DNA of 42,049 nt from Planctomycetota bacterium (GTDB lineage Bacteria > Planctomycetota > Planctomycetia > JALXBF01): contig JALXBF010000152.1 in NCBI GenBank assembly GCA_026991575.1, forward strand, positions 1-42,049, in the 5' to 3' direction. Below the pieces are notes generated by a model, which did not search any database, was not told the origin of the DNA, and was given only the letters and a program-made list of their open reading frames with translations. This document shows, piece by piece, positions 23,685-40,984 of the stretch; the first letter of the stretch is position 1; every line of letters starts with the position of its first letter. Position numbers and translations under genes: made by a program.

Positions 23685-24641
23685 ATGGATACATCGCAGA
23701 TGAATCAGACACCGGGCGAACCGGAGGAACACCGTAACGGGCCCACAGAACGGCCGGCGTATCGGGCCGGTTACGTGGCCATTGTGGGCCGTCCCAACGT
23801 TGGCAAGTCAACTTTGTTGAATCAGTTGCTTCGCGAACGGCTGGCAGCCGTCTCGCCGAAGGCCCAAACCACGCGGCACCGGATCCTGGGCATCCTCAGT
23901 GGCCCGAATTACCAAGCCCTTTTCCTGGACACGCCGGGCTTCATGCGCCAGGCCGCCGACGAGCTAGACCGCCGCATGCTGAAGGCAGCTCAGCAGGCGA
24001 TCGAGGATGCCGACGTCGTCGTGCTGCTGGTAGAACCGCGTTCCCCCGGCGACATTGAAGAACAGTTGGTCGAAAAGCTCGGCAAGAAGCCTGCGATTGC
24101 CGCAATCAACAAGGTGGACACGGTCCAGCAGGCAGAACTGGCTGCAGTCATCGAGGCGTACCGCCAGCTTCACACGTTCGTTGACATCATCCCGATCAGT
24201 GCCCTCTACGGTGCCGGTCTGGACCATCTGCTGAACCGCATCGTCGAGCACCTACCTGAGGGTGAGCCGTTCTACCCGGAGGACCAGCTGACAGACCGTC
24301 CCGAACGGTTCATTGTCGCAGAGTTGATCCGAGAGCAGATCTATCACCTGTATGGCGACGAGATTCCGTACGACACGGCGGTGGAGATCGAAGAGTTTCG
24401 GGAAGCAGCCGACGATCCAGACCGGACGAAGGACTTTATCCGGGCGGTCATCTACGTGAACCGGGACTCACAGAAGAAAATCCTCATCGGCGCCGGCGGC
24501 GCAGCGATCAAGCGGCTTGGTCAGAACGCACGCAAGCAGATCGAGCAGTTCCTGCGCCGGCCCGTCTACCTGGAGCTCTGGGTCAAGGTCCGCAAGAAGT
24601 GGCGTAAGAATCCGCAACTGCTGCGACAACTGGGCTACTGA
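23685..24641 (+). CDS. era: GTPase Era
   Basis: The 318-residue protein has all the Era features: the G1 loop GRPNVGKST, the G2 region AQTTRHRILG, G3 DTPG, the G4 motif NKVD and the G5 SALYG. A C-terminal KH domain carries IGAGGAAIKRLGQNARKQIE. Era binds the 3' end of 16S rRNA during assembly of the small ribosomal subunit. The N-terminus has a hydrophilic extension of about 25 residues before the G domain, longer than in E. coli; the ATG at 23685 follows GGGTGAGG. The sialidase-like gene begins ten bases after its stop and is probably co-transcribed, though no functional link is known. Confidence 0.95.
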   Translation: MDTSQMNQTPGEPEEHRNGPTERPAYRAGYVAIVGRPNVGKSTLLNQLLRERLAAVSPKAQTTRHRILGILSGPNYQALFLDTPGFMRQAADELDRRMLKAAQQAIEDADVVVLLVEPRSPGDIEEQLVEKLGKKPAIAAINKVDTVQQAELAAVIEAYRQLHTFVDIIPISALYGAGLDHLLNRIVEHLPEGEPFYPEDQLTDRPERFIVAELIREQIYHLYGDEIPYDTAVEIEEFREAADDPDRTKDFIRAVIYVNRDSQKKILIGAGGAAIKRLGQNARKQIEQFLRRPVYLELWVKVRKKWRKNPQLLRQLGY

Positions 24642-24650
24642 GGCAACGAC

Positions 24651-25913
24651 ATGACTGATGGACCGCTGAGCAGGCTGGCGGTACGGCCTGGAGGTGTCTT
24701 CCCGAGCACCGTCTACCTGGCCTATTCTGTGGCCGGGATTCTGTACGTTTTCTTAGCACCGGGGAGCTATCCCGCGGAGGACAGCGAGCCGTTCTACCGG
24801 GCCGAGTTGATCTTTCCGTTGGAAGAGAAGCACAACCATGCTCCCGCCATCGTGGAGTGCCCCAATGGCAATCTGCTGGTTTCCTGGTATCGCGGATCAG
24901 GCGAACGTAGGGCCGACGATGTGGCGGTCTACGGTGCCAGGAAGCAGAAGGGCTCGGCCACCTGGAGCAAGCCGTTCGTGATGGCCGATCGCCCGGGTTT
25001 TCCCGACTGCAACACGGCCATGATGATTGATCGCCGCGGCCGGCTCTGGCTGTTCTGGCCGACGGTCGTGGCCAACAGCTGGGAATCCTGTCTGACGAAC
25101 TACCGCGTCTCGGACGACTACCTCCGGCCCGGGCCGCCGCGCTGGAGTTGGCAGGACGTCATCTTGTTGAAACCCGGCGACTTCAGCGAGCGTGCCCTGG
25201 CACTGTTGGATGAGATGGTCAAACGCTACGAGGGCAAGCTTACGCGGCGTGACCGGGAGGAGCTTGCCCTGATCCGTAAGCGGCTCAAGAGCAAGCTGTA
25301 CCGGCGGCTTGGCTGGCAGCCGCGGTGCAAGCCGACGATCTTGCCCAGCGGCCGCATTCTGTTGCCGCTTTACAGCGACACGTTCTCGATCTCGATCATG
25401 GCGATCAGTGATGACGGAGGGCGAACCTGGTACGCTAGCGAACCGTTGATCGGTTTCGGGAACATTCAACCCACGGTCCTGAGACGCTCCGACGGCACGC
25501 TGGTCGCGTACATGCGCGAGAACGGCCCGCGCGACCGGATCCGCGTTGCCGAGTCCCACGACGACGGGCTGACCTGGAGCCCCGTCAGCGAAACGTCCCT
25601 GCCCAATCCCGGCTCTGGCCTGGACGGGGTGCGGCTCGCCAACGGCAACTGGGTGCTCGTCTACAACGACACCACCTCCGGTCGGAACAGCCTGGCCATC
25701 TCACTGTCCGACGACGAGGGCCGGAGCTGGCGGTGGACTCGGCATCTGGAACGTCACCCGAGCGGCCGCTACCACTACCCGGCCGTGATACAGGGGGCCG
25801 ATGGCCGGATTCACGTGGTCTACAGCTACCACGTCAGCGCAGGCAAGAGCATAAAACACGTGGAGCTGAACGAGGCATGGATTCGTGCCGGGGACAGTGC
25901 TGGCCAGCAATAG
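24651..25913 (+). CDS. Sialidase-fold (BNR/Asp-box) protein, membrane-anchored or secreted
   Basis: The 420-residue protein shows an N-terminal hydrophobic segment (VYLAYSVAGILYVFLA, about residues 21-36) and then a beta-propeller with at least three Asp boxes: SDDGGRTW, SHDDGLTW and SDDEGRSW. It resembles the planctomycete sialidase-like family that begins HNHAPAIVECPNGNLLVSWY. Glycoside hydrolysis is likely, but sialic acid is not proven as substrate; the family also contains enzymes and binding proteins of unknown specificity. An inserted charged segment at about residues 178-215 (LLDEMVKRYEGKLTRRDREE) is unusual for the propeller. The gene follows era by nine bases. Confidence 0.8.
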   Translation: MTDGPLSRLAVRPGGVFPSTVYLAYSVAGILYVFLAPGSYPAEDSEPFYRAELIFPLEEKHNHAPAIVECPNGNLLVSWYRGSGERRADDVAVYGARKQKGSATWSKPFVMADRPGFPDCNTAMMIDRRGRLWLFWPTVVANSWESCLTNYRVSDDYLRPGPPRWSWQDVILLKPGDFSERALALLDEMVKRYEGKLTRRDREELALIRKRLKSKLYRRLGWQPRCKPTILPSGRILLPLYSDTFSISIMAISDDGGRTWYASEPLIGFGNIQPTVLRRSDGTLVAYMRENGPRDRIRVAESHDDGLTWSPVSETSLPNPGSGLDGVRLANGNWVLVYNDTTSGRNSLAISLSDDEGRSWRWTRHLERHPSGRYHYPAVIQGADGRIHVVYSYHVSAGKSIKHVELNEAWIRAGDSAGQQ

Positions 25914-26804: not shown

Positions 26805-27653
26805 ATGCCGACCGTCGCGGCGAACTTGATTGTCCACAACGAGGAGCACGTACTGGCCGAGTGCTTGCGAAGCATCGAGTGGGTCGACCAGATTGTCGTC
26901 ATTGACGCCGGCAGCTCGGACCAGACCCGCGCCTTGGCCGCGTCGTACGGGGCCGAGGTGGCAGTGGTCCCCTTCCGCGACTTTGCCGCCCAGCGAAACG
27001 AAGCGTTACAGCGGTCCCGGTGCGATTGGATTTTGTCGATCGACGCAGACGAACGTGTCTCCCCTGCGCTGCGCGATGAGATCCTCGAGATCGTTCGCTC
27101 TCACCGTTGCCGCTACGCCGGTTACCGCGTTCCTATCCACAGCTGGATCTTCGGACGGCGCTTCCGCTGGTCAGGAACGGAGAACGAAGTTAAGCTTCGG
27201 CTGTTTCGGCGGCAGCAGGCGCGGTGGGTCGGCGCGGTGCATGAACGGGTGGAGGTGGCCGGGCCGATCGGGACGCTGTCCGGACCGATCTGGCACGAGA
27301 GCACTCGCGACGTGGAACACTGGCTGCGCAAGGCCATCCGCTACCGTCGCTATGCTGTGGGAGACTCGGATGGGGCCATGCTGGCGGCCTTCGGCATGTT
27401 GGCGCGTCGCCTGTTGCTGCATGCCGGTTTCCTGGATGGTCCTCAAGGGGTTGCTTTCGCGTTGCTGTCGGCCTGGGAAGCGTGGGCACGAAGGCTGGAT
27501 CGGGCAGAAGCGTTCACGGAAGTAACCAATGGCTGGCACGGTCTTCTACTTCGCGTCGCCCGCTTCCTTGCAGGCGCCGGGCGGCGGAGAAGTTCAGCTG
27601 TTCGAATCGGCCAGGCATGCTCGGCGGGCCGGTGCCCCGGTCGTGCTGCTTGA
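26805..27653 (+). CDS. Glycosyltransferase family 2, WaaE/KdtX-like
   Basis: The first 240 residues form a GT2 enzyme: LIVHNEEHVLAECLRSI, VIDAGSSDQT, and the metal-binding SIDADER. VKLRLFRRQQARWVGAVHERVEV is typical of the lipopolysaccharide-core glucosyltransferases of the WaaE type. It would transfer a sugar from a nucleotide donor to a growing lipid-linked glycan at the inner face of the cytoplasmic membrane. The ATG at 26805 was chosen because homology begins there; the frame is open far upstream. The Shine-Dalgarno is weak. The last 41 codons (from 27529) overlap the next gene in another frame and look like a run-on tail with no family resemblance, probably after loss of the original stop. 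Confidence 0.85.
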   Translation: MPTVAANLIVHNEEHVLAECLRSIEWVDQIVVIDAGSSDQTRALAASYGAEVAVVPFRDFAAQRNEALQRSRCDWILSIDADERVSPALRDEILEIVRSHRCRYAGYRVPIHSWIFGRRFRWSGTENEVKLRLFRRQQARWVGAVHERVEVAGPIGTLSGPIWHESTRDVEHWLRKAIRYRRYAVGDSDGAMLAAFGMLARRLLLHAGFLDGPQGVAFALLSAWEAWARRLDRAEAFTEVTNGWHGLLLRVARFLAGAGRRRSSAVRIGQACSAGRCPGRAA

Positions 27654-28602
27654 TTGCTGGGGCGATCGGATTCAGCACGGTGACTGTGTCCATGTGTTCG
27701 GCCTCAGTCACGCGGCGTTGGAGCTGGCTCGGATCGCGCGCTGCCGCGGAGCCGTCCTTGTTGTCTCGCCGATTCTTTGGTATCACCTCCGCAGCCTCTG
27801 GGGAACGGAGCGGAGCTGGGCCGGGCGGTGGAAACTCCTGGCCGGGTTTGCCGCGCGTTACTGTCGGCTCCATCCGGCCGACTGGAAGCGCGAGCTGCTC
27901 AGCCTGGCCGACATCGTCCTGCCCAACTCGGCCGCCGAAGCCGAGCAGCTCGTTCGCTGGTTCGGCGTGCCGCGGGACCGAATCCGTGTGATCCCCAATG
28001 GGGTTGACCCAAGCTGGCTGGACCGAGAGCGAACGTCCTCACCCGGGGACCGCGACCTGATGCTCTGCGTCGGGCGGATTGAACCGCGCAAGAATCAGCT
28101 AGCCGTGATTCAGGCGGCCAACGCGTTGGGCGTGCCGCTGGTGATCGTCGGCGGTGAGCATCCGGTGTACGCCGACTATGCCGAGACGTGCCGGCAACTG
28201 GCAGGTCCGAACGTGCGGTTCGCAGGGCCGCTGACGCACCGGGGGCCGGCCTTGGCGCGGCTCTTTTGGCGCGCACGGGCTGTGGTCCTTGCCAGCTGGT
28301 TTGAAACACCCGGCCTGGCTGCTCTCGAAGGGGCGGCTGCGGGAGCTAACGTCGTCATAACCTGCTACGGCAGCACGCGCGAGTATTTCGCTGAGCTGGC
28401 TTACTACGTGCGCCCCCAGTCGCTGAGATCGATTTGCGATGCGCTCTGGCAGGCGTGGCATGTACAACCGCCAGCCGAGCTCATGGTGCGGGTGCGGACC
28501 CGTTATCGGTGGGCGCGGATCGGCCGCCAGCTGGCGGATCTCTATGACGAACTGCTTCTGGAACGAGCCGGCGTGAGGCTGGACCGAACCCGGGCAGCTT
28601 GA
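27529..28602 (+). CDS. Glycosyltransferase family 4 (GT-B fold)
   Basis: The 357-residue protein has a GT-B architecture. The N-terminal domain starts with a glycine-rich loop (ASLQAPGGGEVQL). The central part has ADIVLPNSAAEAEQL and VIPNGVDPSW. The C-terminal nucleotide-sugar domain shows LMLCVGRIEPRKNQ and the E-x7-E motif in SWFETPGLAALEGAAAG. It probably adds a hexose or related sugar to a surface glycan. The start at 27529 lies inside the end of the GT2 frame; the amino-terminal homology begins directly after this ATG, so the start is sound and the overlap is more likely a run-on of the upstream gene. The next gene follows 16 bases after its stop. Confidence 0.88.
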   Translation: MAGTVFYFASPASLQAPGGGEVQLFESARHARRAGAPVVLLDCWGDRIQHGDCVHVFGLSHAALELARIARCRGAVLVVSPILWYHLRSLWGTERSWAGRWKLLAGFAARYCRLHPADWKRELLSLADIVLPNSAAEAEQLVRWFGVPRDRIRVIPNGVDPSWLDRERTSSPGDRDLMLCVGRIEPRKNQLAVIQAANALGVPLVIVGGEHPVYADYAETCRQLAGPNVRFAGPLTHRGPALARLFWRARAVVLASWFETPGLAALEGAAAGANVVITCYGSTREYFAELAYYVRPQSLRSICDALWQAWHVQPPAELMVRVRTRYRWARIGRQLADLYDELLLERAGVRLDRTRAA

Positions 28603-28618
28603 GCAAGGACGTGCGACG

Positions 28619-29848
28619 ATGGCAACACAACAGAGGCAAACTCAGCGGCGTTATCGCTACGTCAAGCTGCGGTGGAAGCTACTGTTTCAGACATTCGACT
28701 GGGTCACGCATCTGCTGCCGTCCCGACTCCGCGCTTTGCCCGTGACCCGCTTCGCCGCGTGGCCCCCCGAACGACTGTTGCTCGTGCAGCTGGACCACAT
28801 CGGTGATGCCGTGCTGAGCACCGGGATTCCTGCGGCAATCAAGCAGAAGTTCCCCAACTGTCAGATCGACGTGCTCTGCAGTCACTGGACGGCCGAGCTG
28901 TTCGAGGCCCTGCCGGAGGTGGCTGAATGCCTTGTGTCGCGCCGCAACTGGCAAGGACGAACGCGGCAAGAGTTCGTGGTTTGGTCCGAGCTGGCTCGGA
29001 TCGTGCGCTTGATCCGCGATCGACGCTACGACGTGGCCATCGACATCCGGGGCGACTTCCCGGCACTGCTGGCCCTCTGGCTGGCGGGCGTGCCGTGGCG
29101 GATTGGATGGGATTGTGCAGGGGGAGCCGCACTTCTGACCACCGTCGCTCGCTGGCAACCGGGCCGTCACGAACTGCAAAGCCGCCGCGAACTGCTCAGG
29201 AAACTCGACATCGAAGCCCAGATCCTGCCGCGGATCCGTCCCCAGCCAGAGCACCATCGCCGGGTCCAGCAATGGTTGCGGGTGATCAACGCCATGCGAC
29301 CGCTGATCGCCGTGCACGTCGGTGCCGGTACGCCTGCCAAACGCTGGCCCACGGTCTATTTCCACGAACTCATCTGCCAGCTGCGCGATCGCGAGGCTGC
29401 TACGTGCATCCTCGTCGGTGGTCAGGAGGATCGGCACACGGCACACAGCCTGGACCGGCTGGGCACGCCCGCCTGCAACTGGGTGGGCCGACTGTCACTG
29501 CTGGAACTTGCAGCCCTGTGTCAGCAGGTCGACGTGTTCATCGGACCGGACTCCGGGCCTGCCCACATTGCTGCTGCCTGTGGCGCGCGAACCATTGTGC
29601 TCTTCAGCGGCACCAACCAACCATCGCAGTGGGCACCCGTGGGCCCATATGTCGTCCCCCTGCGATACCAGACGCCGTGTGCCCCATGCTGCCTGAAGAC
29701 ATGCTGCCAGCCTGGCCATCCCTGCATGGCGGGCATCACACCGGACACTGTCGTCCGGATCGTCAGCCGAGCACTTCATCGCCAGCGCCGATCGCAGCAC
29801 CCAGAACTGGTGACCGTCACAGCCAAGCTCAGAGGCGTCGCAGCATGA
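28619..29848 (+). CDS. Glycosyltransferase family 9 (heptosyltransferase-like)
   Basis: The 409-residue protein carries the GT9 marks. LLLVQLDHIGDAVLST is the N-terminal acceptor loop with the Asp of the active site. VHVGAGTPAKRWP and GGQEDR follow. FIGPDSGPAHIAAACGARTIVLFSGT is the nucleotide-sugar binding segment. Heptosyltransferases of this family build the inner core of lipopolysaccharide; whether the donor here is ADP-heptose is not known. A Cys-rich tail (TPCAPCCLKTCCQPGHPC) is conserved in many GT9 members, which often end CxxPC. A charged extension of about 45 residues precedes the domain. The stop overlaps the start of the 70-residue gene by four bases (ATGA). Confidence 0.88.
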   Translation: MATQQRQTQRRYRYVKLRWKLLFQTFDWVTHLLPSRLRALPVTRFAAWPPERLLLVQLDHIGDAVLSTGIPAAIKQKFPNCQIDVLCSHWTAELFEALPEVAECLVSRRNWQGRTRQEFVVWSELARIVRLIRDRRYDVAIDIRGDFPALLALWLAGVPWRIGWDCAGGAALLTTVARWQPGRHELQSRRELLRKLDIEAQILPRIRPQPEHHRRVQQWLRVINAMRPLIAVHVGAGTPAKRWPTVYFHELICQLRDREAATCILVGGQEDRHTAHSLDRLGTPACNWVGRLSLLELAALCQQVDVFIGPDSGPAHIAAACGARTIVLFSGTNQPSQWAPVGPYVVPLRYQTPCAPCCLKTCCQPGHPCMAGITPDTVVRIVSRALHRQRRSQHPELVTVTAKLRGVAA

Positions 29849-30057
29849 CCGGACCGCTCATCACCCGTCCGCGCGACAGGTATTCAGCGGACGATCTGGC
29901 CTTCACGCACCGTCACCGACACCAGGGTCGATCGCGGTGGGTCAACGGCAAGCCAGCTGGCGCAACGGTGTGCCGGTACTTGCTGGCAACCTGGGTCCTG
30001 GTCGTCTCGGCTGCCTACGCCGCCCGTCTCTGCTGGAAGTATCTGCTCAGCCACTAG
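29845..30057 (+). CDS. Small single-pass membrane protein, 70 residues, family unknown
   Basis: The frame starts at the ATG of an ATGA overlap with the GT9 stop and ends 11 bases before the next gene. The product is hydrophilic and basic for 40 residues (RHRHQGRSRW) and then has one hydrophobic helix (residues about 43-66, core YLLATWVLVVSAAYAA), ending KYLLSH. There is no signal-peptidase site, so it is probably a tail-anchored or N-in protein. I do not recognise the family. The tight coupling on both sides supports a real gene and suggests a partner of the neighbouring glycosyltransferases. Confidence 0.7.
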   Translation: MTGPLITRPRDRYSADDLAFTHRHRHQGRSRWVNGKPAGATVCRYLLATWVLVVSAAYAARLCWKYLLSH

Positions 30058-30068
30058 GGTCGGCTGCC

Positions 30069-32267
30069 ATGGAATCACTGGCCCAAGCCGCACTTGTCTG
30101 GGCAATTACAACGGCGGCCGCATTCGGCGCGGGCGCTGTCACAGCTGCTGTGCTGAAGTCGCGTACGGCGACTGTGGCGGGTGCGCTCAGCCAGCGGCTG
30201 GCGCTGGGCTACGGCGCGCTTGGGACGGCGCTTTTCTGGCTGGGGGTCGCGCACCGCCTGGGACCGGAGCCCATTGGGTGTCTGCTTGGGGCTGGCGTCG
30301 TGGCTGCGGCGATCACGGCCGGGTCAACAATTTGGCGGTGGCACCGCGCCGGCCTTCGCTTGCCTGCCCCCCGCTGCCGCCAACGGCGACCGGCTGCCAT
30401 CGCCGCCTGGGGTGGCGTGGCTGTGATACTTGTCGCCGCCCTGCCACGGGCGCTTGGCCCTGAAACCGAAGGCGATGCCCTCTGTTACCATATCGAACTG
30501 CCCAAGCAGTTCGTCCGGCTCGGTCGGCTGGCCTTCATGCCCTGGACCGATCAGTCGCTCTTCCCGGCGCTGACAGACCTCTGCTTCTCGGTGCCATTGG
30601 CTTTGTTGGATGGCTCTCCGCTGCTTCGGCTGTTCCCCTTCACTTGGGGGGTTGCCCTGGTGCTGGCCGTCGCTGAGTTGGCCGCTACTACCGGTTACCG
30701 ACCGCACGCGGCACTGGCAGCGCTGCTGATCGCCTCGGCCCCAATTGTCACCAACCACGCAACTGTGGCGTACAACGACCTGCCCGTCGCGCTGTTCGGA
30801 ACCTGGGCTCTCATATGGCTCATACGGTGGATGCATTGTCCCACGGTCTGCCATGCTGTCCTAGCCGGTTTGTTTCTCGGTTTCGCAGCGGCGACGAAGC
30901 TTACCGGGTTGGCCTGGGCACTGTGCCTGTGCGCGACGGCCATCGCCGTCACTGCCGCATCTCGGCAGCTCGCGTGCCGACGGCGTGCCCTTGGGCTGGT
31001 AGCCGCCCTGACCGTTGCTCTGCTCGTAGCAGGGCCGTGGTACGCAAGGGCCTGGTACCACACCGGCAACCCGTTCCATCCCTACTTTGCTTCCCTGTTT
31101 CCCTCCGCAGCGAACATCCACGATTGGCGACCCGTCAAGCCGCTACCCGTGTCGCTAACCAACCCTCAGATCCTGGCCCTGCCCCTGCTGGCGACTCTCT
31201 TCCCGGAGCGCTTTGGAGGCGCCGGCCAGCAATGGGGCGTGGTGTTCCTGGCGTTCTTGCCCGCTGCACTGCTGATTGCCGCCCGCCGGCGTGGAGGCCG
31301 CCTCGCGCTGGCAGCCGCCGTGCTGTACACCATCTTGTGGCTCGCAGCAAAGCAGAATCTACGATTCCTGCTACCGGTGCTTCCTATCGCAGTGCTCTGG
31401 TGCGTGGCCGGTCTGGATTGGTTGAGAAGCACGAATCACCCGCTCGCGCGCGCCGCGATCACGGGCGTGCTTGTCGTGCAGTTGGCTGCCGGGCTGGCCG
31501 CCCCGCTCCGTCGGTCGCTTCCGTACTGTGCCTTCCTGCTGGGCAGGCAATCGTTGGAGGAATTCCTCGCTACCCACGAGCCCACGTACCGCGTGGCCAC
31601 GTGGCTAGCGGCTCGTGTGCCGCCTGGCATGCCGGTCCTGACACAGGAGCACCGCTTGTTCTACTTTGACCGACCGCTCGTGCGGGAAGATGCGCTAAGG
31701 CGTTGGCTGGGGTACGACTCGAGCAGTCCGGCATTGCTGGCTGCCCTTGAGTCGCTGGGCTTTCGTTACATTCTGCTTGCGCGCTCGCTGAACCACGAGG
31801 TGGCCCGGTACGACCAGTCGCTGAGGGAACGGCTGAGAAGAGCCGTTGACAGCTTCGAACCCATCGGCACAATGGCGTTTTGCAGTCCGGGGGGTGACCG
31901 GCGCGTCTACGAACTGTTCCGGTTCCGCGCTTCAATGGACGGGCGGCGGTCGTTTCTTCTGCGCCATCCCCGATGGCAACTGGTCAAGGACGGCTTGAGG
32001 TGGTTTGCTCATGGCTACGGTGGCCGGGCCGGCAGCGGTTCAGCAACGGCGTGCAGTCGATTGGCTGCAGCAGCGGAAGACACTTTACGCCAAGCTGGCG
32101 GCACCGCTTGTGAGGCGGTTGCTGACGCTGGTCGATCGCAATCCGAGCCATGCCACCTACGGGTGTTGCGACCGCCAGTACTGGCATTACCGCACGGCCG
32201 ACTTCGCCTGCGGCATGTACCAGGAAGCAGCCCTGGCTTTCGCGATGGCAGCGGAACAACTCGATGA
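30069..32267 (+). CDS. GT-C-like polytopic membrane glycosyltransferase
   Basis: The 732-residue protein has about ten to twelve membrane helices and an early loop reading ETEGDALCYHIELPKQ, which resembles the acidic, substrate-binding first loop of GT-C enzymes (ArnT/PMT/STT3-type, lipid-phosphate sugar donor). Its probable role is to transfer a sugar from a polyprenyl phosphate on the outer face of the membrane. The ATG at 30069 was chosen because membrane helices start there. From about 32005 onward the frame overlaps the next gene by 257 bases, and its last 85 residues become Ala/Gly/Arg-rich without homology. The original stop was probably near 31995, where a one-base shift gives TGA just inside the Shine-Dalgarno of the next gene. 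Confidence 0.75.
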   Translation: MESLAQAALVWAITTAAAFGAGAVTAAVLKSRTATVAGALSQRLALGYGALGTALFWLGVAHRLGPEPIGCLLGAGVVAAAITAGSTIWRWHRAGLRLPAPRCRQRRPAAIAAWGGVAVILVAALPRALGPETEGDALCYHIELPKQFVRLGRLAFMPWTDQSLFPALTDLCFSVPLALLDGSPLLRLFPFTWGVALVLAVAELAATTGYRPHAALAALLIASAPIVTNHATVAYNDLPVALFGTWALIWLIRWMHCPTVCHAVLAGLFLGFAAATKLTGLAWALCLCATAIAVTAASRQLACRRRALGLVAALTVALLVAGPWYARAWYHTGNPFHPYFASLFPSAANIHDWRPVKPLPVSLTNPQILALPLLATLFPERFGGAGQQWGVVFLAFLPAALLIAARRRGGRLALAAAVLYTILWLAAKQNLRFLLPVLPIAVLWCVAGLDWLRSTNHPLARAAITGVLVVQLAAGLAAPLRRSLPYCAFLLGRQSLEEFLATHEPTYRVATWLAARVPPGMPVLTQEHRLFYFDRPLVREDALRRWLGYDSSSPALLAALESLGFRYILLARSLNHEVARYDQSLRERLRRAVDSFEPIGTMAFCSPGGDRRVYELFRFRASMDGRRSFLLRHPRWQLVKDGLRWFAHGYGGRAGSGSATACSRLAAAAEDTLRQAGGTACEAVADAGRSQSEPCHLRVLRPPVLALPHGRLRLRHVPGSSPGFRDGSGTTR

Positions 32268-33660
32268 GTTGGCCCTGCCAGCGACGTTTGGCAACGCTCG
32301 CCTCAAGCAACTGGCGGTCGCCGCTGCGCGCTTCGCCGCCCGGTGCGCGCACCGCAACGGCGCCCTGGACGACTACTACCCCTATGAGCAGGCGGTGGGC
32401 GCAACTGCCTTCGCGCTGCGAGCGGCCATCGAGACGGCTAAAGCACTCAAGCTGACCGATCCAGAGCTTCGCGACTGGGTTCGCCGCGCTGCTCTGTGGC
32501 TGGGGCATTTCGACGAGAGCGGCCGGCTGGCAAACCACCAGGCGCTCGTGGCGCTAACGCTGTTCCGAGCCGGCCGCTGGCTGACGCAGCACGCTCTGAT
32601 CGAGCAGGCACGCCGGCGTCTGCACCGGCTGCTGTCCTGGCAAACGCCGGAGGGGTGGTTCCCCGAGTACGATGGTTGCGACCCGGGCTATCACACGGTG
32701 CTGATTGCCTTCCTGGCAGAGCTGTGGCGAAGCAGCGGCTGGACCGAACTGGCAGAGCCGCTCAGGCGGGCCGTCGAGTTCGCGGTCGCGATTCAGCATC
32801 CGGACGGGACGATAGGCGGTGAGCACGGCAGCCGAAACACGTACCACTGCTACGTTCATGGGTTCGAGCTACTGGCATCGTGTTGGCCTGCCGCTCGATT
32901 GTTCCTGGCACGTGCCGGTCACGCACTGGCTACCGAGATCCAGCCTCCTTTGGACGACGACCGCATGGTGGCACATTACGGCGTTGACCTGTTGCTGGCC
33001 CGCCGCGATGCGTCAGCCGTGCCCCCACCGGACGAGCCGCCAAGCACGGCGAAGGTGTGGTTTCCGCTTGCTGGGATCGCCATCCGGCGACTCGGCGGCT
33101 GTTGCTGGATCGTCGGCACGCTGAAGGGGGGTAGCTTTCGCCTGTATCAGAACGCGGAGCTTCGTGCGGTGGATACCGGTCTGGTCGCCGAACTGCCCGA
33201 CGGAACCCTGGCAGCAACGGCCGCCGTCCCGCCCGAACGGATTGCCGTAACGGAGGATGGCATTGAGCTCAGCGGCCGCTTCGGGCTGGTCAGGCACGAG
33301 GTCCTGACACCGGGCAAACAGGTCCTGTTCCGGGCCGTCACGTTCAGCGTGGGCCGGTTCTGGCCGAACGTGGTCCGACGTTTCCTTCAGCGGAAGGCCA
33401 TCACCGGCAGTCGCCCCGTTGGTCTCCGTTACGTTCGCCGAATCCGCTGGGAGCCGGAAGCCACGGTCTGCGATGAGGTGTGGCTGGACGGGGGGCCGGT
33501 CCCGCGGCGACTGTGGCTGGCCACGGACGCGACCTTTCGCTATGTCGCGGCGAGCAACACGTTTCAACCCGGGGCGATGGCTCCGTGGACCGAGTTGGCG
33601 CAGGCGGCAGAGAAGCTAAGGACTGGTAGCACGGTCGTGGTATCGAGGGCCTACACATGA
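32011..33660 (+). CDS. Alpha/alpha-toroid-like protein of unknown function
   Basis: The 549-residue protein has no signal peptide. Its first 330 residues consist of paired helices with repeated motifs containing aromatic and acidic residues (RQYWHYRTADFACGMYQEAAL, DDYYPYEQAVGATAFALRAA, ANHQALVALTLFRAGRW and TPEGWFPEYDGCDPGYHTVLIAFLAEL), as expected of an alpha/alpha toroid glycoside hydrolase, lyase or epimerase. The C-terminal part is beta-rich. Its position among glycosyltransferases suggests action on a sugar polymer, perhaps as an epimerase or lyase of the cytoplasmic intermediate; this is inference. The ATG at 32011 follows TTGAGGTGG at a normal distance. Its stop overlaps the next ATG (ATGA). 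I recognise no family with certainty. Confidence 0.7.
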   Translation: MATVAGPAAVQQRRAVDWLQQRKTLYAKLAAPLVRRLLTLVDRNPSHATYGCCDRQYWHYRTADFACGMYQEAALAFAMAAEQLDELALPATFGNARLKQLAVAAARFAARCAHRNGALDDYYPYEQAVGATAFALRAAIETAKALKLTDPELRDWVRRAALWLGHFDESGRLANHQALVALTLFRAGRWLTQHALIEQARRRLHRLLSWQTPEGWFPEYDGCDPGYHTVLIAFLAELWRSSGWTELAEPLRRAVEFAVAIQHPDGTIGGEHGSRNTYHCYVHGFELLASCWPAARLFLARAGHALATEIQPPLDDDRMVAHYGVDLLLARRDASAVPPPDEPPSTAKVWFPLAGIAIRRLGGCCWIVGTLKGGSFRLYQNAELRAVDTGLVAELPDGTLAATAAVPPERIAVTEDGIELSGRFGLVRHEVLTPGKQVLFRAVTFSVGRFWPNVVRRFLQRKAITGSRPVGLRYVRRIRWEPEATVCDEVWLDGGPVPRRLWLATDATFRYVAASNTFQPGAMAPWTELAQAAEKLRTGSTVVVSRAYT

Positions 33661-34574
33661 CGCGAACGATCGTGCGCTGGGGTGTGGCCGCGGGGCTACT
33701 GGTCTGGTTCTGGCACCATGTCGACTGGCCAGCCCTCGCCGACGTGGTCGCATCGAGCCGGCACGCCTGGTTCCTGGTCGCTCTGGCTCTGTTCGTTCCC
33801 CAGTGGCTGATCGCAGCCGCGAGGTGGCACGCGATCGTGGCCGGATATGTGGACACTAGCTATCGGCGTGCACTCGATTCGGTCATGGCCGCCAACGCGG
33901 CAAACCTGCTTCTGCCAGCCAAGCTGGGCGACCTGATCAAAGCGGCCTACTGCGGAGTACGGTCCGGTGCAACGGCCGTGAGCTTACCGATCGCCGAGCG
34001 CCTCTTTGACGTTGGGCTGCTTGGTGCCGTTGCGGCAGCGGCCGCCTGCTGGCGGCTGGCCGACCATGCACCGGTGCTGGCAGCCGTGGCCGGCAGCGCC
34101 GGGCCGATCGCGGCAGCGGTGTGTTGGCTCCGGTGGCGGCGACCATTGGCGGAGCAGTTGGTGCGAGTGGCAGGCCCCAAAGCTGGGCAAGCGCTGCGAC
34201 CTGTAATCGATGGCTCAAGCCGCGTGTTGCTCTGGACGACTGCGCTCTGGACCCTGCACGGCGTGCAGGTCTGGTGTTTCTTTCGGGCCGCAGGCGCTGC
34301 CCCTGGCTTGGCCGAGAGTCTGACCGGGATTCCGCTCCTCTTTCTGGCTGCCGCCGTACCGCTGGCACCGTGGGGACTGGGTAGCCGCGAGGTGGTGCTG
34401 GCACTACTATTCGGCCGAACGGCGACACAGGAACAGCTTGCGATTGTCGCGGTGATGTTCCTGCTGCGCTATCTCGTCCCCGGCTTGGTAGGTATTCCGG
34501 CCATTGGGCGGTACCAGGGCTGGCCGCGTCCGGCCAGGGGGTGGCCGGAGCGTCTGGCTCACGGTGCCGGCTAA
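33657..34574 (+). CDS. Flippase-like integral membrane protein (LPG synthase TM region family)
   Basis: The 305-residue protein has about eight helices and the motif pattern of the lysylphosphatidylglycerol-synthase TM region/UPF0104/AglD family: AARWHAIVAGYV, then AANAANLLLPAKLGDLIKAAYCG, and PIAERLFDVGLLG. Relatives appear in polyprenyl-sugar and lipid-glycan loci, where a flippase or glycosyltransferase-partner role is supposed. Its place at the end of the glycosyltransferase genes fits the export of a lipid-linked glycan. The ATG overlaps the preceding stop (ATGA). Confidence 0.8.
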   Translation: MTRTIVRWGVAAGLLVWFWHHVDWPALADVVASSRHAWFLVALALFVPQWLIAAARWHAIVAGYVDTSYRRALDSVMAANAANLLLPAKLGDLIKAAYCGVRSGATAVSLPIAERLFDVGLLGAVAAAAACWRLADHAPVLAAVAGSAGPIAAAVCWLRWRRPLAEQLVRVAGPKAGQALRPVIDGSSRVLLWTTALWTLHGVQVWCFFRAAGAAPGLAESLTGIPLLFLAAAVPLAPWGLGSREVVLALLFGRTATQEQLAIVAVMFLLRYLVPGLVGIPAIGRYQGWPRPARGWPERLAHGAG

Positions 34575-34576
34575 CC

Positions 34577-37513
34577 ATGCAGCCCATGATCATCCAACGG
34601 ACCGACTCGCACCCGCGAATGCCCCACCAGTTGACCTTGCTGTATTGGCTGTGCGCGGGCGCGGTGATGCTGGCCGGCTCACTTCTGGCTGCGGACGAAC
34701 CACAGTTGCGTGTGGTGCCGGGCCTGACGATACGGCAGTTCTCCGGCCCTGAGCTCGCAACCAACATCTACACGCTCGCCCTGGATCCGCACGGCCATCC
34801 CACGGTTTCTGGGCCCGGCTACATCGCCATCCTTGTGGACCGTGACGGCGATGGCCGAGCGGATCTTGCCGAGCTCTTCGCATCGGCACCGCGAGAAGGA
34901 GCGCAGGGTCTGTACTGGGATGGCACCGACCTCTACGTCACCGGCGACGGCGCCGTCCTCCGGTACCAGGATCGCGATGGGGATCATCGACCCGACGACG
35001 AACCTGCTGTGTTGCTGCGCATCAAGACCGGTAGCGAACACGATGCCCATGCCATCCGGCGTGGCCCGGACGGATACTTTTATCTGGTTTGCGGCAACAT
35101 GACCGGGATCTCCTCGGACGTCGTCACCGATCCGGCATCGCCAGTGCGAGAACCGATCGCTGGAACCGTGCTGCGCATCAGCCCGGACTGGTCGCGCGTT
35201 TCGGTATACGCGCACGGATTCCGCAACGCTTATGACTTTGCGTTCAACTCCGACGGAGAACTGTTCACATACGACTCGGACAACGAACGTTGCCAGGCAC
35301 TGCCGTGGTACGAACCGACTCGGCTGTATCACGTTCTGCCTGGTGGCTTCTACGGCTGGCTCAGTCCGCAGCGCGCCGCATGGTGGCGTTATCCACCCTG
35401 GTTCCCGGACGTGGTGCCGCCGCTTCTTTATCTGGGCCGCGGCTCACCCACTGGCGTGGAAGCAGCGACGGTGCTGAGGTTGCCCGGCATCGGGCGACGC
35501 GACCTGATCGTTGCCGACTGGACGTTCGGTCGAATCATCCACGTTTCGCTGGAACCCGGCTCGGTGACCTACCGTGCCCGCAGTCGCGTACTGGTGCAAG
35601 CAACCGGCGGAGCCGGCTTCGCCCCGACGGACCTAGCCGCCGATCCGACCGATGGCAGCCTGTGGATCTGCATAGGCGGCCGAGGAACGCGGGGGGCGGT
35701 CTACCGGTTGAGTGCCGCGGCGCGCGCGACCGGTCACGAGCCGCGTACTCGGCAACCGGAAGCTCTGGCACCACACGATGTGGCGCTCTACCGGCGCCTG
35801 GCTACGGCGGTCCCGGGGACTGCCGCGCGCGCCGACTTGGACAGGGCACTTCGCAAGGGCGATCGTTTGCTGCTAGGAGCTGCCCTGCGGCACGCAGCTC
35901 AGGTGGCACACGACAGCGGGCTCAAGCGGCTGGTGGCCGGGCAGATCGTAGCCCTGTTTGCCACGGCCCGGAGCCGTCCGGACGAAACGCTGGACGCCGC
36001 ACAGCGGCTGCTAGCGAGCGACCTGCTGCCATGGCAGCAGCTCTGGGTCCTGCGGGCCGCTCAGCTTGCAAGCGGCGGCGTGGGGGGTGGAAGGTACCGC
36101 GGGCACGTCTGGTCCGGTTACAGCCCGTCCGAACCGCGCACGGTGCCGCCGGGCGCCGGACGGCTGGTTCATCGGATCGCAACGTTGGTGACAAGTCGTC
36201 ACCGCGCTGTGCGTTGGGAGGCGGCCAGGTGGTTGGCGATCGTTGGCGGGGGGAATGCTCCGCAGCAAGCTGCCCGGCAGCTGGTCCGCGCAGCGGCCAA
36301 CGCGGCCGACGCGTTGGAGCTGGAGCACATGCTCATCGCTTTTTCCCGGCTGCCTGCAACGGCTCGTGCGTCGCACACGGACTCGGTCGCCAGACTGCTG
36401 GTCGCCCTGCCGTACCGACTGGACAAAGCCAAAGTAGCGCGCGATCGGAACTGGCCGTACCGCATACGCGAGCTGTACGAGGCCCTGGCGCGGGGAGTAC
36501 CTTCGCTGCACGAAGCACTCCTGCGAGACGATCGCTTCGGGCATGCTAGCCACACCGCTTATCTGCTCGCGCCGAATTTTCCCACACGCGCAGGCATCCA
36601 ACGTTGCTACGAACTCTGGCGCCAGGGTCGTTTTTCGGCTTGGAACGAGCCGCTGGTGCGGTTGGCTCGCGAGCTTGAGCCGACACAGCGTCGCGTGCTG
36701 ATCGAACGCCTCTGGGCCGATGCTCCCGAGCTGCGTCCTGAGCTCCTGCTGCTGGTTGCCACGGCCCCCCGAACCGAGGATCGACCGCGACTGATCGAAG
36801 GCCTGACAGGTTATCGAGCCGACGTGGCAGCTGCGTGTCTTGATGCCTTGCGGATGCTGGGCGGCGCGGAGCGCGAAGGAGAGGCTGTGCTCCTGGCAGC
36901 ACGTTGGTGGCAGCGACTTGCACGAGAGAAGAAACCGGCTGAGGCCGCGCCGTTCGCAGCCTACGTACGAGCAGCGTTAGGGCAGGACCTCACCCGACCG
37001 GAAGAGGCGCTGGCCATAGTGCGACGGCGCTGGCCTACGGACGCAGCGTTGGACCGGACAGAGGGAGACTGGCTTAGCTGGGCGAACCGCCTCGAACGGG
37101 TCCGGTGGCGGGAGGGCAATGCCGAGCGCGGCCGGATGCTCTTCAAGAAGCTCGGATGCATCCATTGCCATAACGGCACGTCGTTCGTCGGGCCTGACCT
37201 GAGGGGGGTGACGCGACGCTTCTCGCGTCTGGATCTATTCCGCGCCATCGTGCTGCCCGACGAAATCGTACCAGAGCGTTACCGGGCAACGCGCTTCCTA
37301 CTGGCCGATGGTCGGGTGGTTGAAGGGATCGTTGTCTACGAGAGTGCACGGGTCGTGCTTGTCCACACGGCCGATGGCCTTGACGTGCGGCTGGATCCTC
37401 TCCAGGTGGAGCGGCGGGTGCAGACAGGCGGTTCTATAATGCCGAGGGGTCTGCTGCGGGGCCTGTCGGACCGAGAGATTGCGGATCTTTACGCCTACCT
37501 TCGGTCACTATGA
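34577..37513 (+). CDS. PVC-type haem-binding CxxCH protein
   Basis: The 979-residue protein is exported (hydrophobic core AGAVMLAGSLLA). A beta-propeller of the NHL/PQQ-glucose-dehydrogenase-like class follows (residues about 45-400: TIRQFSGPELATN, DRDGDGRADLAELF). Then comes an alpha-helical repeat region (residues about 400-840) and a C-terminal cytochrome-c-like module with C861-I-H-C-H865. RFLLADGRVVEGIVV and SDREIADLYAYLRSL are typical of the planctomycete membrane-bound dehydrogenase family. The family is found in large numbers in PVC bacteria and its substrates are mostly unknown. It follows the flippase-like gene by two bases, so it may belong to the glycan operon. The ATG at 34577 was chosen; ATG at 34619 gives a cleaner signal peptide but has no Shine-Dalgarno. 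Confidence 0.85.
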   Translation: MQPMIIQRTDSHPRMPHQLTLLYWLCAGAVMLAGSLLAADEPQLRVVPGLTIRQFSGPELATNIYTLALDPHGHPTVSGPGYIAILVDRDGDGRADLAELFASAPREGAQGLYWDGTDLYVTGDGAVLRYQDRDGDHRPDDEPAVLLRIKTGSEHDAHAIRRGPDGYFYLVCGNMTGISSDVVTDPASPVREPIAGTVLRISPDWSRVSVYAHGFRNAYDFAFNSDGELFTYDSDNERCQALPWYEPTRLYHVLPGGFYGWLSPQRAAWWRYPPWFPDVVPPLLYLGRGSPTGVEAATVLRLPGIGRRDLIVADWTFGRIIHVSLEPGSVTYRARSRVLVQATGGAGFAPTDLAADPTDGSLWICIGGRGTRGAVYRLSAAARATGHEPRTRQPEALAPHDVALYRRLATAVPGTAARADLDRALRKGDRLLLGAALRHAAQVAHDSGLKRLVAGQIVALFATARSRPDETLDAAQRLLASDLLPWQQLWVLRAAQLASGGVGGGRYRGHVWSGYSPSEPRTVPPGAGRLVHRIATLVTSRHRAVRWEAARWLAIVGGGNAPQQAARQLVRAAANAADALELEHMLIAFSRLPATARASHTDSVARLLVALPYRLDKAKVARDRNWPYRIRELYEALARGVPSLHEALLRDDRFGHASHTAYLLAPNFPTRAGIQRCYELWRQGRFSAWNEPLVRLARELEPTQRRVLIERLWADAPELRPELLLLVATAPRTEDRPRLIEGLTGYRADVAAACLDALRMLGGAEREGEAVLLAARWWQRLAREKKPAEAAPFAAYVRAALGQDLTRPEEALAIVRRRWPTDAALDRTEGDWLSWANRLERVRWREGNAERGRMLFKKLGCIHCHNGTSFVGPDLRGVTRRFSRLDLFRAIVLPDEIVPERYRATRFLLADGRVVEGIVVYESARVVLVHTADGLDVRLDPLQVERRVQTGGSIMPRGLLRGLSDREIADLYAYLRSL

Positions 37514-37798: not shown

Positions 37799-39055
37799 AT
37801 GCCACACCCGGACCTAGGGATCTGGTTTGTGGGCGCGTTCGGCTCGGTAGCTTCCACCACGGCACTGGGACTGGCCGCACTGCAGCGGTCCCTGGTAGCA
37901 ACCACGGGGCTGGTCACCGCGACACCGGAACTGGCTGCTTTGCCCCTGCCAAAGTTTGACCGTTTCGTAGTCGGCGGGCACGACATTCGTGCCGGCAGCA
38001 TGGAGCAATCGGTCCGCGAGCTGCACGAACGTGCCAATGTGCTCAACGAGGGGCTGATCAAGCAGTGCAGCGACGTGCTAGCGCAATGGGACCGGAACGT
38101 CCGGCCCGGGACGGTGTACCGGTGCGGTCAGGCAATCGAGCAGCTGGTCGATCGCGGCGACCTGAAGGAAGCACGCACGCCGCTGGTTCTCGTGGAGCAG
38201 ATCGCTGACGACATCCTTGAGTTCCGTAGCGACCACGGGCTGGATCATGTCATCGTGGTCAATTTGGCATCGACGGAACCACCCGTCGATTCCGAACAGC
38301 TACCCAAGCACTGGGACGAATTGGAACAGGCGCTGGCTAAAGGTACGGCCTCGCTACCTGCTTCATGCCTGTACGCGCTGGCTGCGATCCGCACGCACAG
38401 CTCGTACATCAACTTCACCCCCTCTGCGGGCATTTCGTTGGCGGCACTCCGCGAGCTGGCCGACCGGGAGGGTATCTTGTATGCAGGGCAAGACGGCAAG
38501 ACGGGCGAGACGTTGCTGAAGACGGTGCTTGCGCCGCTTTTCAAGCACCGTAACCTTCGAGTGCTAAGTTGGGTCGGCCACAACATCTTCGGCAACCGCG
38601 ACGGCCTGGTGCTCGACGATCCGCGGCACAAGGCGTCGAAGGTGAGGACGAAGGACCGTGTGCTTGGCGACATCCTCGGGTACACACCGCAGACGCTCGT
38701 GACCATCGAGTACATCGAGTCGCTCGCTGACTGGAAAACTGCCTGGGACCATGTCCACTTCGAAGGCTTCCTGGGAACCAAGATGGTGCTACAGTTCACC
38801 TGGCAAGGCTGCGACTCGCTGCTGGCGGCCCCACTCGTGCTCGATCTAGTTCGCCTTACGGCCTTTGAGTGGCAGCGGGGCGGCCGTGGATTGCAACGGC
38901 ACCTTGCGTCGTTCTTCAAGCGTCCGCTGGGCGTGGAGTGTCACGACTTCTTCGAGCAGTGGCAGCTACTGATCGAGTATGCCCGGCGTGCTGGTGAGCA
39001 GAGCCGTTGCGGACCGGATGGTGTGACGCACTCCAGGCACGTCCACGAGAACTGA
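37799..39055 (+). CDS. ino1: Inositol-3-phosphate synthase family protein
   Basis: The 418-residue protein has the NAD-binding N-terminal loop (WFVGAFGSVASTTALGL), the conserved VNLASTEPP and the NFTPSAG block. GQDGKTGETLLKTVLAPLF is the catalytic lysine segment. The product would convert glucose-6-phosphate to 1L-myo-inositol-3-phosphate in the cytoplasm. Inositol could feed an inositol-containing lipid or a glycan headgroup; the UbiA-like gene downstream would fit a prenyl or lipid connection but this is inference. The ATG follows GAGGAGG. Confidence 0.88.
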   Translation: MPHPDLGIWFVGAFGSVASTTALGLAALQRSLVATTGLVTATPELAALPLPKFDRFVVGGHDIRAGSMEQSVRELHERANVLNEGLIKQCSDVLAQWDRNVRPGTVYRCGQAIEQLVDRGDLKEARTPLVLVEQIADDILEFRSDHGLDHVIVVNLASTEPPVDSEQLPKHWDELEQALAKGTASLPASCLYALAAIRTHSSYINFTPSAGISLAALRELADREGILYAGQDGKTGETLLKTVLAPLFKHRNLRVLSWVGHNIFGNRDGLVLDDPRHKASKVRTKDRVLGDILGYTPQTLVTIEYIESLADWKTAWDHVHFEGFLGTKMVLQFTWQGCDSLLAAPLVLDLVRLTAFEWQRGGRGLQRHLASFFKRPLGVECHDFFEQWQLLIEYARRAGEQSRCGPDGVTHSRHVHEN

Positions 39056-39561
39056 ACGCACAATAGCTCCCCAAACTCCGGCAATAGCCACTGCAGCTAC
39101 CGTACGTAAGCCAACGAATGGTAGTGGCAGCGGTGTGACTTCCGCTCACAGCCGCGCTGCAACAGGCCCAGCCCTTCGATGCACGCCGGCCGGGAGCGTC
39201 CCCTCACCCTGTGCGGCTCCGGCAGGGACGGTAGTCACCGGCTCGCTTGGGGGTTCGTAGCGTCATGGGCACCTGCGGATGCTGGGGGCGGCAGCAGGCA
39301 CCGTGGCGTGCCTGCGGGGGGGCATGGTAGCGGAAGCTCACAAGCCTTGCGCCTCGGCAAGCCCCGCCGAGGTGGACGGCGCCGTGGTGGTGCTCACCAG
39401 TGGGCGAGTCCCGCACCGAAATGCGTCTGCCGCTGCCGGCCAGCACCATGGACAGCTATTGCGCGGGACGGCCTGGTAGCGGGTCCTTTACCTGCGAACG
39501 AGTGGCGGCTGCCGAAGGGGGATAAGCTTTCCGTACCAATGCCGGTGTGGCGCCGTCGTGA
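39056..39561. other. Intergenic stretch with nothing recognised
   Basis: About 500 bases between the two convergent genes. Frames are short or low-complexity on both strands. No RNA family or terminator is visible. Confidence 0.5.
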
Positions 39562-39909
39562 TCACACCGCCTCCGGGCCGCGCTCCCCGGTGCGGATACG
39601 CACGCAGTCCTCCAGTGGCAGAATGAAGATCTTGCCATCGCCGACTGCGCCTTCCGGACCGGTTCGACCGGCCTCCTGGATGGCACGCACCGTTGGTTCG
39701 ACGAAGTCTTCGTTGACAGCGATTTGCAGTTCGAGCTTCTGCGTCAGCTTCAGCGCCACTTCACGGCCTCGGTGTAACTCGGTCTGGCCCTTCTGACGAC
39801 CGAACCCCTGGCAATGCACCACGGTGAGTCGGAACACCTCCACCGCGGCCAGCGCCTCCTTGACGGCCTCGAGCCGTTCTGGTCGAATCGTGGCAATGAT
39901 CAGTTTCAT
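39562..39909 (-). CDS. PII signal-transduction protein (GlnB/GlnK family), tyrosine-less T loop
   Basis: The 115-residue protein matches PII throughout: the N-terminal MKLIIATIRPERLEAVKEAL, the T-loop base GFGRQKGQTEL with Gln39, and the C-terminal GDGKIFILPLEDCVRIRTGERG that binds ATP and 2-oxoglutarate. The T loop reads TELHRGREV, where enterobacterial proteins have TELYRGAEY, so Tyr46 is His and Tyr51, the uridylylation site, is Val. Control by effector binding is therefore probable and control by uridylylation is not. No amtB or glnA lies next to it; its nearest neighbour is the divergent EboE-like gene. Confidence 0.92.
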   Translation of the reverse strand: MKLIIATIRPERLEAVKEALAAVEVFRLTVVHCQGFGRQKGQTELHRGREVALKLTQKLELQIAVNEDFVEPTVRAIQEAGRTGPEGAVGDGKIFILPLEDCVRIRTGERGPEAV

Positions 39910-40121
39910 CGCTGCGCTGTTTCTCCGGTCGTGACCATTGGCCCGGCAGTCTCAGCCGTGCGGCCGGCACCCGCGGCAGTAGCCCGTCTGCCGCGGCACC
40001 GACGCGCTGCCGAGTTACACAATGGTACAATTCGGGCGTTGACGCCGCGCCGCGGAGCCAGAGAGCAGCCGTATCGCAACGCCTTTCGAGTCACCGGTAG
40101 GACAGCGAGGAAGGAAAGGGG
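39910..40121. promoter_or_regulatory. Divergent region between the PII and EboE-like genes
   Basis: On the plus strand TACAAT at 40026-40031 is a good -10 box for the EboE-like gene, preceded by GG. The -35 box is weak. GAGGAAGGAAAGGGG precedes the ATG at 40122. No clear promoter is visible for the PII gene. Confidence 0.4.
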
Positions 40122-40973
40122 ATGAAGCTGGCCTTCAGCACGAATGCGTACATGCGCATGCCGCTAGAGCAGGCGATCGAGCGCATCGCGTCGATTGGCT
40201 ATGAGGGCGTTGAGCTGATGGCTGACGTCCCTCATCTATGGCCCGCCGGCCTGCTGGAGAGCCAGAAGCTGGCGTGCCGCCAAGCACTGCATCGATACGG
40301 CTTGGAAATTGCCAACATCAACGCGTTCATGATGAACGCAGTCGCTGATCCGCGCCAGCCCTACTGGTACCCGTCCTGGATCGAACCCTACGCGCCGTAC
40401 CGCCGAATTCGAATCGAGCACACGAAGCGAGCGCTGACGCTGGCTCGGGAGCTGGGCGCAGCGAATATCACCACCGAGCCAGGCGGACCGGTGCCTCCGC
40501 AGATGACCTTTGAAGTGGCCATGCGCACGTTCGTCGAGGTGCTGAAGCCAGTGGTCGAGCACGCCGAGCGTGAGGGCGTGCTGCTGTTGGTCGAACCGGA
40601 GCCTGGCTTGTTGATCGAACACTCCGATCAATTCCTGGACCTGGCTGAACGGATTCCCTCACCGGCACTGGGCGTGAACCTGGACATCGGGCACATGTTC
40701 TGCGTCGGCGAGGACCCGGCAGAGGCCATCCGGAAGCTGGCCGGCCATATCCGACACGTCCATCTGGAAGACATTGCCGCCAGCCGAGAGCACCGGCACC
40801 TGATCCCGGGCCATGGCGCGATCGACTTCCGCAGTTGCCTCGCAGCGCTCAGGGAAATCGGCTACAACGGCTGGATCACCATCGAGCTGTACCCGTACGT
40901 GGACGACCCGGACGCAGCGGCCAAGGAGGCATTCAGCGTCATCAAGCCGCTGCTCGATGAGATAGCACGCTAG
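40122..40973 (+). CDS. Xylose-isomerase-like TIM-barrel protein, EboE-like
   Basis: The 283-residue protein is an AP-endonuclease-2/sugar-phosphate-isomerase type TIM barrel. Metal-binding residues are visible at the expected strands: Glu in LVEPEPG, Asp and His in NLDIGHMF, His in HVHLEDI and Glu in TIELYPY. It would act as a cytoplasmic isomerase, epimerase or hydrolase on a sugar or cyclitol. The gene stands 11 bases before the EboC-like prenyltransferase gene, and such a pair occurs in ebo clusters, which are thought to move a metabolite precursor to the periplasm. That role is by neighbourhood and family, not by a unique motif. The Shine-Dalgarno is strong. Confidence 0.75.
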   Translation: MKLAFSTNAYMRMPLEQAIERIASIGYEGVELMADVPHLWPAGLLESQKLACRQALHRYGLEIANINAFMMNAVADPRQPYWYPSWIEPYAPYRRIRIEHTKRALTLARELGAANITTEPGGPVPPQMTFEVAMRTFVEVLKPVVEHAEREGVLLLVEPEPGLLIEHSDQFLDLAERIPSPALGVNLDIGHMFCVGEDPAEAIRKLAGHIRHVHLEDIAASREHRHLIPGHGAIDFRSCLAALREIGYNGWITIELYPYVDDPDAAAKEAFSVIKPLLDEIAR

Positions 40974-40984
40974 GGGGCCGGGCC

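Follow-up and report, generated by a model that had tools for sequence, protein, structure and literature searches.

We describe a packed run of eight genes in a planctomycete genome that probably directs assembly of a cell-surface glycolipid of the lipopolysaccharide (LPS) type, and that includes the gene for a protein, here called the toroid, with the predicted fold of uronic-acid lyases and epimerases. The window analysed, 42,049 nucleotides from a Planctomycetota bacterium, is contig C152 of a 4.96-Mb draft genome (97.8% complete, 191 contigs). This genome is the single representative of its order in our comparison set, and its relatives there belong to other families of the class. The glycan-locus part of our reading is well supported. 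We further propose, tentatively and with rather less than even confidence, that this surface-glycan cluster contains a synthase-modifier-flippase cassette, which would provide a GT-C type glycosyltransferase (GT) with a modified lipid-linked uronic acid.

A predicted lyase/epimerase fold

The first-pass annotation of this DNA had listed the toroid as toroid-like and of unknown family. Structure search now places it in the lyase/epimerase fold, although the family is still unnamed. Neither the toroid nor the small one-helix protein of the cluster has a meaningful family match in Pfam or NCBIfam: the window toroid matches PF09492 alone (E 0.054, 13.2 bits versus a cut-off of 22, not passed), and the best Pfam match among 22 toroid members is also to PF09492 (E 1.9e-6). 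Matches of the family to Pec_lyase and DUF6288 in Pfam were set aside as weak, and the toroid alignment, used as a profile against the PDB, gave insignificant matches only. An AlphaFold2 model, built from a 4-sequence alignment, has a pTM of 0.81 and comprises a helical toroid at about residues 9-335 and a beta domain. In a Foldseek comparison with the PDB, the closest solved folds were polysaccharide lyases (PLs) of families PL33 (E 5e-7, TM-score 0.47), PL35 (PL35-type GAGases) and PL17; PL8, heparinase III and human dermatan sulfate epimerase 1 (DS-epi1; rank 24, E 2.6e-4) were also returned. The modelled structure is thus consistent with the fold of uronic-acid lyases and epimerases. As in PL33 (BT4410/BtPL33HA) and the fold group of PL12, PL15, PL17, PL21, PL35 and PL39, an (alpha/alpha)6 toroid is combined with an antiparallel beta domain in the model. 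Unlike that group, the toroid shows no match to solved members at the level of sequence, lacks both the beta-domain His and a signal peptide, and lies in biosynthetic operons next to GT2 and UPF0104 genes.

Ten residues are invariant in 32 toroid members (W60, E128, N177, E216, E221, D226, Y229, D318, R478 and D490), and H178 is conserved in 30 of the 32. The spacing between N177 and Y229 is 52, versus 53 between N238 and Y291 of PL33, which have been shown to be catalytic (PMC11848413). His178 and Tyr229 also parallel His205 and Tyr261, which are used by DS-epi1 (PMC8006597). When the toroid family was aligned by hhalign with a heparinase III-like protein that this genome also encodes, the Asn-His and Tyr sites fell in register, with a score of 38.2 versus 34.2 for the best of 135 controls; the low probability (27%) reflects a target of one sequence only. 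The heparinase III-like protein can in turn be aligned to heparinase III (5jmd), where these motifs coincide too. From these alignments, the toroid is predicted to carry the catalytic Asn and Tyr that lyases and epimerases have in their toroid domain. The heparinase III-like protein (L137:100-3632, contig C104) has no obvious signal peptide, and its gene is immediately followed by a polysaccharide deacetylase-like gene; this may be an exopolysaccharide locus.

Residue conservation bears on whether the toroid is an enzyme of this kind at all. It might be catalytically dead or act differently, as a glycan binder, scaffold or chain sensor, and both the missing beta-domain His and the strong divergence of its sequence from all known lyases would suit such a role. 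The ten invariant residues, kept across phyla, and the nearly invariant H178 are nevertheless the pattern of an active enzyme, and we consider a purely binding or sensing role unlikely.

The likeness to DS-epi1 includes the two-domain fold, with a His and then a Tyr in the toroid domain, and action in glycan synthesis, as is proposed for the toroid. DS-epi1 differs in working on a polymer in the secretory pathway and in having a metal site and His450/Tyr473; a counterpart of His450 was not found in the toroid. To our knowledge, the known C5-epimerases of the lyase/epimerase fold have polymers as substrates and lie outside the cytoplasm.

No signal peptide or N-terminal transmembrane (TM) segment was found by hydropathy in 22 toroid members, and the toroid is therefore apparently cytoplasmic; it also appears to belong to the building rather than the breakdown side of glycan metabolism. 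A lyase can have a place in a synthesis operon, as alginate lyase (AlgL) does in those for alginate, and the toroid could serve in housekeeping, as a lyase or hydrolase that removes lipid-linked uronic-acid oligosaccharides misassembled or mis-sided while the glycan is being built. Its nearest solved structures are indeed lyases, and the lyase-site residues Asn and Tyr are kept. A cytoplasmic location, the non-conservation of the lyases' beta-domain His and the tight pairing of the toroid with a one-sugar DPM1-type GT2, not with a polymerase, make this housekeeping role improbable.

A recurrent cassette around the toroid

The toroid family is widespread and spans several phyla, with members in several planctomycete classes, on an alphaproteobacterial (Phyllobacterium) megaplasmid and in metagenome-assembled genomes (MAGs) labelled Rhodospirillaceae, Nanoarchaeota and Auribacterota. 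Of 34 loci examined, 19 have a GT2 gene, mostly of DPM1 type, immediately upstream of the toroid gene, and 12 have a UPF0104 flippase-like gene immediately after it; the megaplasmid and a Rhodospirillaceae MAG are among the loci with such flanking genes. One Auribacterota MAG (L041:7902-9623) has its GT2 gene after the toroid gene, with a short overlap, instead of before it.

The order of the cluster is kept in part in other planctomycete genomes, more than chance would explain; it is thus not unique to this genome, whereas uniqueness is what the first-pass annotation had named as fatal to its proposal. Neighbouring genes in the relatives were called by tblastn and simple open reading frame (ORF) rules, with absences weaker than presences. 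The order GT4-GT9-small protein-GT-C-(extra GT2)-toroid(-flippase) was found again in f109 and f5, two further families of this class, and GT2-GT4-GT9 recurs in a third (f6). Orthologues of GT9 that share its N-terminal extension are present throughout f6 and also in f109. Genomes of f6 carry GT2(A)-CDP-alcohol phosphotransferase-GT2-methyltransferase-deacetylase-GT4-GT9. In G462 (f109), a run of this type (methyltransferase not detected) is followed by small protein-GT-C-DPM1-type GT2-toroid-UPF0104, and both G612 (f109) and G720 (f5) have GT4-GT9-small protein-GT-C-DPM1-type GT2-toroid, with a UPF0104 gene after the toroid in G720 and none found in G612. G720 also has an L-2-hydroxyglutarate oxidase-like gene between GT-C and the DPM1-type GT2 (L108, 4223-5595). 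Four further genomes (G567, G650, G591 and G653) hold the cassette of DPM1-type GT2, toroid and UPF0104 apart from GT9 genes. There are thus two modules, the GT run and the cassette; some lineages have them joined, others apart.

The cluster had been put forward as the best candidate for an undescribed system. It is not wholly undescribed in kind; what is new in it is the cassette GT2-toroid(-UPF0104). In gpgSDF and hexSDF (glycolipid synthase, deacetylase and UPF0104 flippase), a cytoplasmic synthase and a cytoplasmic modifier likewise accompany a UPF0104 protein; for gpgSDF these serve glucosaminyl-phosphatidylglycerol (GlcN-PG), with flipping itself unproven (PMC12713373). In the present cassette, by contrast, a DPM1-type GT2 replaces the GT4 synthase, the toroid replaces the deacetylase, and LPS-type GT genes are linked in this class. 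The combination of DPM1-type GT2, UPF0104 and GT-C in the relatives also resembles polyprenyl-phosphate sugar pathways of the AglD/AepG/ArnC type with a GT-C acceptor enzyme; a difference is that this genome lacks the DPM1-type gene. We know of no pathway of this type with a lyase-fold partner. AepG, a DPM-synthase-like archaeal GT2, makes dolichyl-phosphate-glucuronic acid for an acidic exopolysaccharide (PMC9943897). No description of the cassette was found in the open literature on planctomycete LPS core genes or on heparinase-like proteins in synthesis operons.

LPS-type context of the glycosyltransferase run

With its GT9, WaaE-like GT2 and GT4, the run resembles LPS core heptosyltransferase operons of the waaF/waaE type. 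It differs from these in the extra GT-C, toroid and UPF0104 genes and in its GT9, which stays under every heptosyltransferase equivalog cut-off (for TIGR02195, LPS heptosyltransferase II, 110.3 bits versus 134.6). Elsewhere the genome encodes LpxC (C138), WaaA (C191) and an HldE-like domain I protein (C190), and an LPS-type glycan is favoured for this reason. Consistent with this, G105, the sole genome of 12 without a strong HldE match, is also without a GT9 match. An LPS-type outer membrane has been proposed for planctomycetes from genomes (PMC3422733). These genes, together with the recurrence of the order in other families, support the earlier view of a packed operon for the assembly of an LPS or other lipid-linked glycan.

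The product could instead be a modified phospholipid of the glycosyl-phosphatidyl type, since CDP-OH_P_transf and polysaccharide deacetylase-type genes occur in the same run of relatives, the layout recalls gpgSDF, where a UPF0104 protein accompanies GlcN-PG synthesis, and a myo-inositol phosphate synthase gene lies directly downstream in the window. However, this genome has no such deacetylase and the window no such phosphotransferase, the GT9 family suggests heptose-type cores, and LpxC and WaaA are encoded in the genome. We therefore give a phospholipid product only a small share of the probability, and retain an LPS-type glycolipid as the probable product.

Gene joins and probable deletions

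The joins had been described as overlaps or gaps of 2-16 bases. This holds for most of them: GT4 and GT9 are separated by 16 bp and the small protein and GT-C by 11 bp, GT9 overlaps the small protein gene and the toroid gene overlaps the flippase gene by 4 bp each, and the flippase gene is followed by the PVC-type haem gene after a gap of 2 bp (ATG 34577) or with an overlap of 34 bp. It does not hold for two long overlaps, 125 bp between GT2 and GT4 and up to 263 bp between GT-C and the toroid, the latter given a toroid start at TTG 32005. Homology of GT2 to its relatives stops near residue 247 (27530-27550), that of GT-C stops near 31934, and that of the toroid starts near 32068. Inside the long overlaps, GC in the own frame of the GT2 and GT-C tails is not coding-type while the downstream gene's frame is, and the tails therefore look like read-through.

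At both sites the relatives carry additional genes: GT2 and GT4 are separated by a deacetylase-type gene, accompanied in f6 by a methyltransferase gene, and GT-C and the toroid by the DPM1-type GT2. The deacetylase of the relatives has zero matches in this genome, and a close copy of the DPM1-type GT2 is likewise missing. On the simplest reading, the overlaps would therefore be scars of deletions that left fused ends. A sequencing frameshift as their origin was rejected, since the downstream frames are intact and the overlaps occur where the relatives hold genes that this genome is without.

The small protein and GT-C

GT-C scores 20.3 bits against the GT87 model PF09594, under the cut-off of 25. 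Directly before GT-C, relatives (f4, f5, f109 and f118) encode a protein of 65-75 residues with a MIAP start and a C-terminal TM helix, and nearly every relative locus with a readable neighbour has it. The window's small protein, previously left without an assigned job, matches these in slot, size and TM helix, although the homology of this copy is weak: against a model of nine relatives built without it (family motif MIAP[IL]R), it scores 10.6 bits, as high as which 1 of 1,000 shuffles scored, and in a six-frame search of the window with the small-protein model it was outside the top matches. A much stronger value (E 1.8e-13) was discarded as circular, the query sequence having been inside the model. 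From its position, we propose that the small protein is an accessory subunit of GT-C. In three loci of class relatives (L130, L132 and L133), a MIAP-type protein stands beside a GT-C or deacetylase gene with GT9 not detected, so the small protein-GT-C pair may be the basic unit.

Coding evidence and neighbouring genes

All eight ORFs that had been named are present on the + strand (Table 1), with coding-type GC by codon position. Pfam or NCBIfam cut-offs are passed by GT2, GT4, GT9, UPF0104 and the PVC haem domain; the UPF0104 gene is marginally under the cut-off of TIGR00374 (42.1 versus 43.2), and the PVC haem protein is under that of the N-terminal model TIGR02604. The PVC haem gene, earlier counted as part of the system, is a neighbour outside the conserved unit: the same slot holds no PVC gene in any relative examined.

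Table 1. Genes of the cluster at 26805-37513
Gene product	Coordinates	Strand	Evidence
GT2 (WaaE-like)	26805..27653	+	PF00535 56.9 bits; class orthologues 38-41% over residues 2-247
GT4 glycosyltransferase	27529..28602	+	PF13439/PF00534; in relatives, 38-47% orthologues immediately precede GT9
GT9 heptosyltransferase-family protein, N-terminal extension	28619..29848	+	PF01075 113.1 bits vs cut-off 22
70-aa protein, one C-terminal TM helix	29845..30057	+	Slot between GT9 and GT-C
GT-C type multi-TM glycosyltransferase	30069..32267	+	32-34% orthologue in G462; about 10 hydrophobic segments
Toroid, (alpha/alpha)6 toroid + beta-domain protein	32005..33660	+	Predicted fold, conserved residues; homology from about 32068
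UPF0104/AglD2-type flippase-like membrane protein	33657..34574	+	PF03706 112.8 vs 33.4 bits
PVC-type haem-binding CxxCH protein	34577..37513	+	TIGR02603 78.3 bits vs cut-off 68.15

Upstream of the cluster (23685-25913, +), an Era GTPase gene is followed about 10 bp on by a gene for a BNR_2 (sialidase-like) protein. Directly downstream (37799-41983, +), an ebo-like cluster carrying an INO1 gene encodes, besides myo-inositol-phosphate synthase, a pair of short unknown proteins, a TIM barrel resembling sugar-phosphate isomerases and an EboC-like UbiA protein (NF035940 180 bits, under the cut-off of 250).

A proposed pathway

We propose that the cluster assembles a lipid-linked glycan of the cell surface, which would most likely belong to an LPS-type molecule, either as its core or as an outer part. 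The cytoplasmic GT2, GT4 and GT9 would lengthen a membrane acceptor, with ADP-heptose or a related sugar, judged from the GT9 family, as the probable GT9 donor. A second module would handle a separate lipid-linked sugar. In the relatives, the DPM1-type GT2 would load this sugar, for which we propose a uronic acid, onto polyprenyl phosphate; the toroid would then alter it in the cytoplasm via the Tyr/Asn-His site, most simply by C5 epimerisation, and the UPF0104 protein would help the modified lipid-linked sugar across the membrane. On the outer face GT-C would add the modified sugar to the glycan, perhaps together with the small one-helix protein as its partner. The genome studied here has apparently lost its dedicated DPM1-type GT2, whose part a paralogue would have to take over.

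Our results show the order and families of the genes, their conservation, the predicted fold of the toroid with its conserved residues, and the presence of LPS genes in the same genome. The substrates, the direction of the reaction, the flipping and the partnership of the small protein are what we infer, and we regard the chemistry of the cassette as doubtful. The claim is slightly more doubtful still in its full form, in which DPM1-type GT2, toroid and UPF0104 protein would make up an undescribed cassette, spread in planctomycetes and alphaproteobacteria, where an enzyme with the lyase/epimerase fold, working in the cytoplasm, C5-epimerises or otherwise edits polyprenyl-phosphate-linked uronic acid before flipping and GT-C transfer.

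Several observations weigh against the proposed pathway. The Foldseek TM-scores are modest (0.41-0.49, from a model built on a 4-sequence alignment), no alignment column has His in at least 8 of 22 toroid members within the beta domain, and H444 of PL33 is without a conserved counterpart. The best match to the DPM1-type GT2 in this genome is 33%, versus 55-63% in seven relatives. The HldE-like protein falls short of its curated cut-off (320.7 versus 345). The f6 genomes have the GT2-GT4-GT9 part without the toroid, so one module can occur without the other. The window toroid is placed in the tree outside the starred clade of the class and groups weakly with G162; deep vertical descent and transfer both fit this place, its own lineage being a separate order.

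If the proposal is true, a cytoplasmic biosynthetic toroid family would represent a new way of setting uronic acid stereochemistry. It could account for acidic sugars in planctomycete and further envelopes for which LPS genetics have received little study. As the toroid family is unnamed and occurs in several phyla, the function of one enzyme would annotate many genes.

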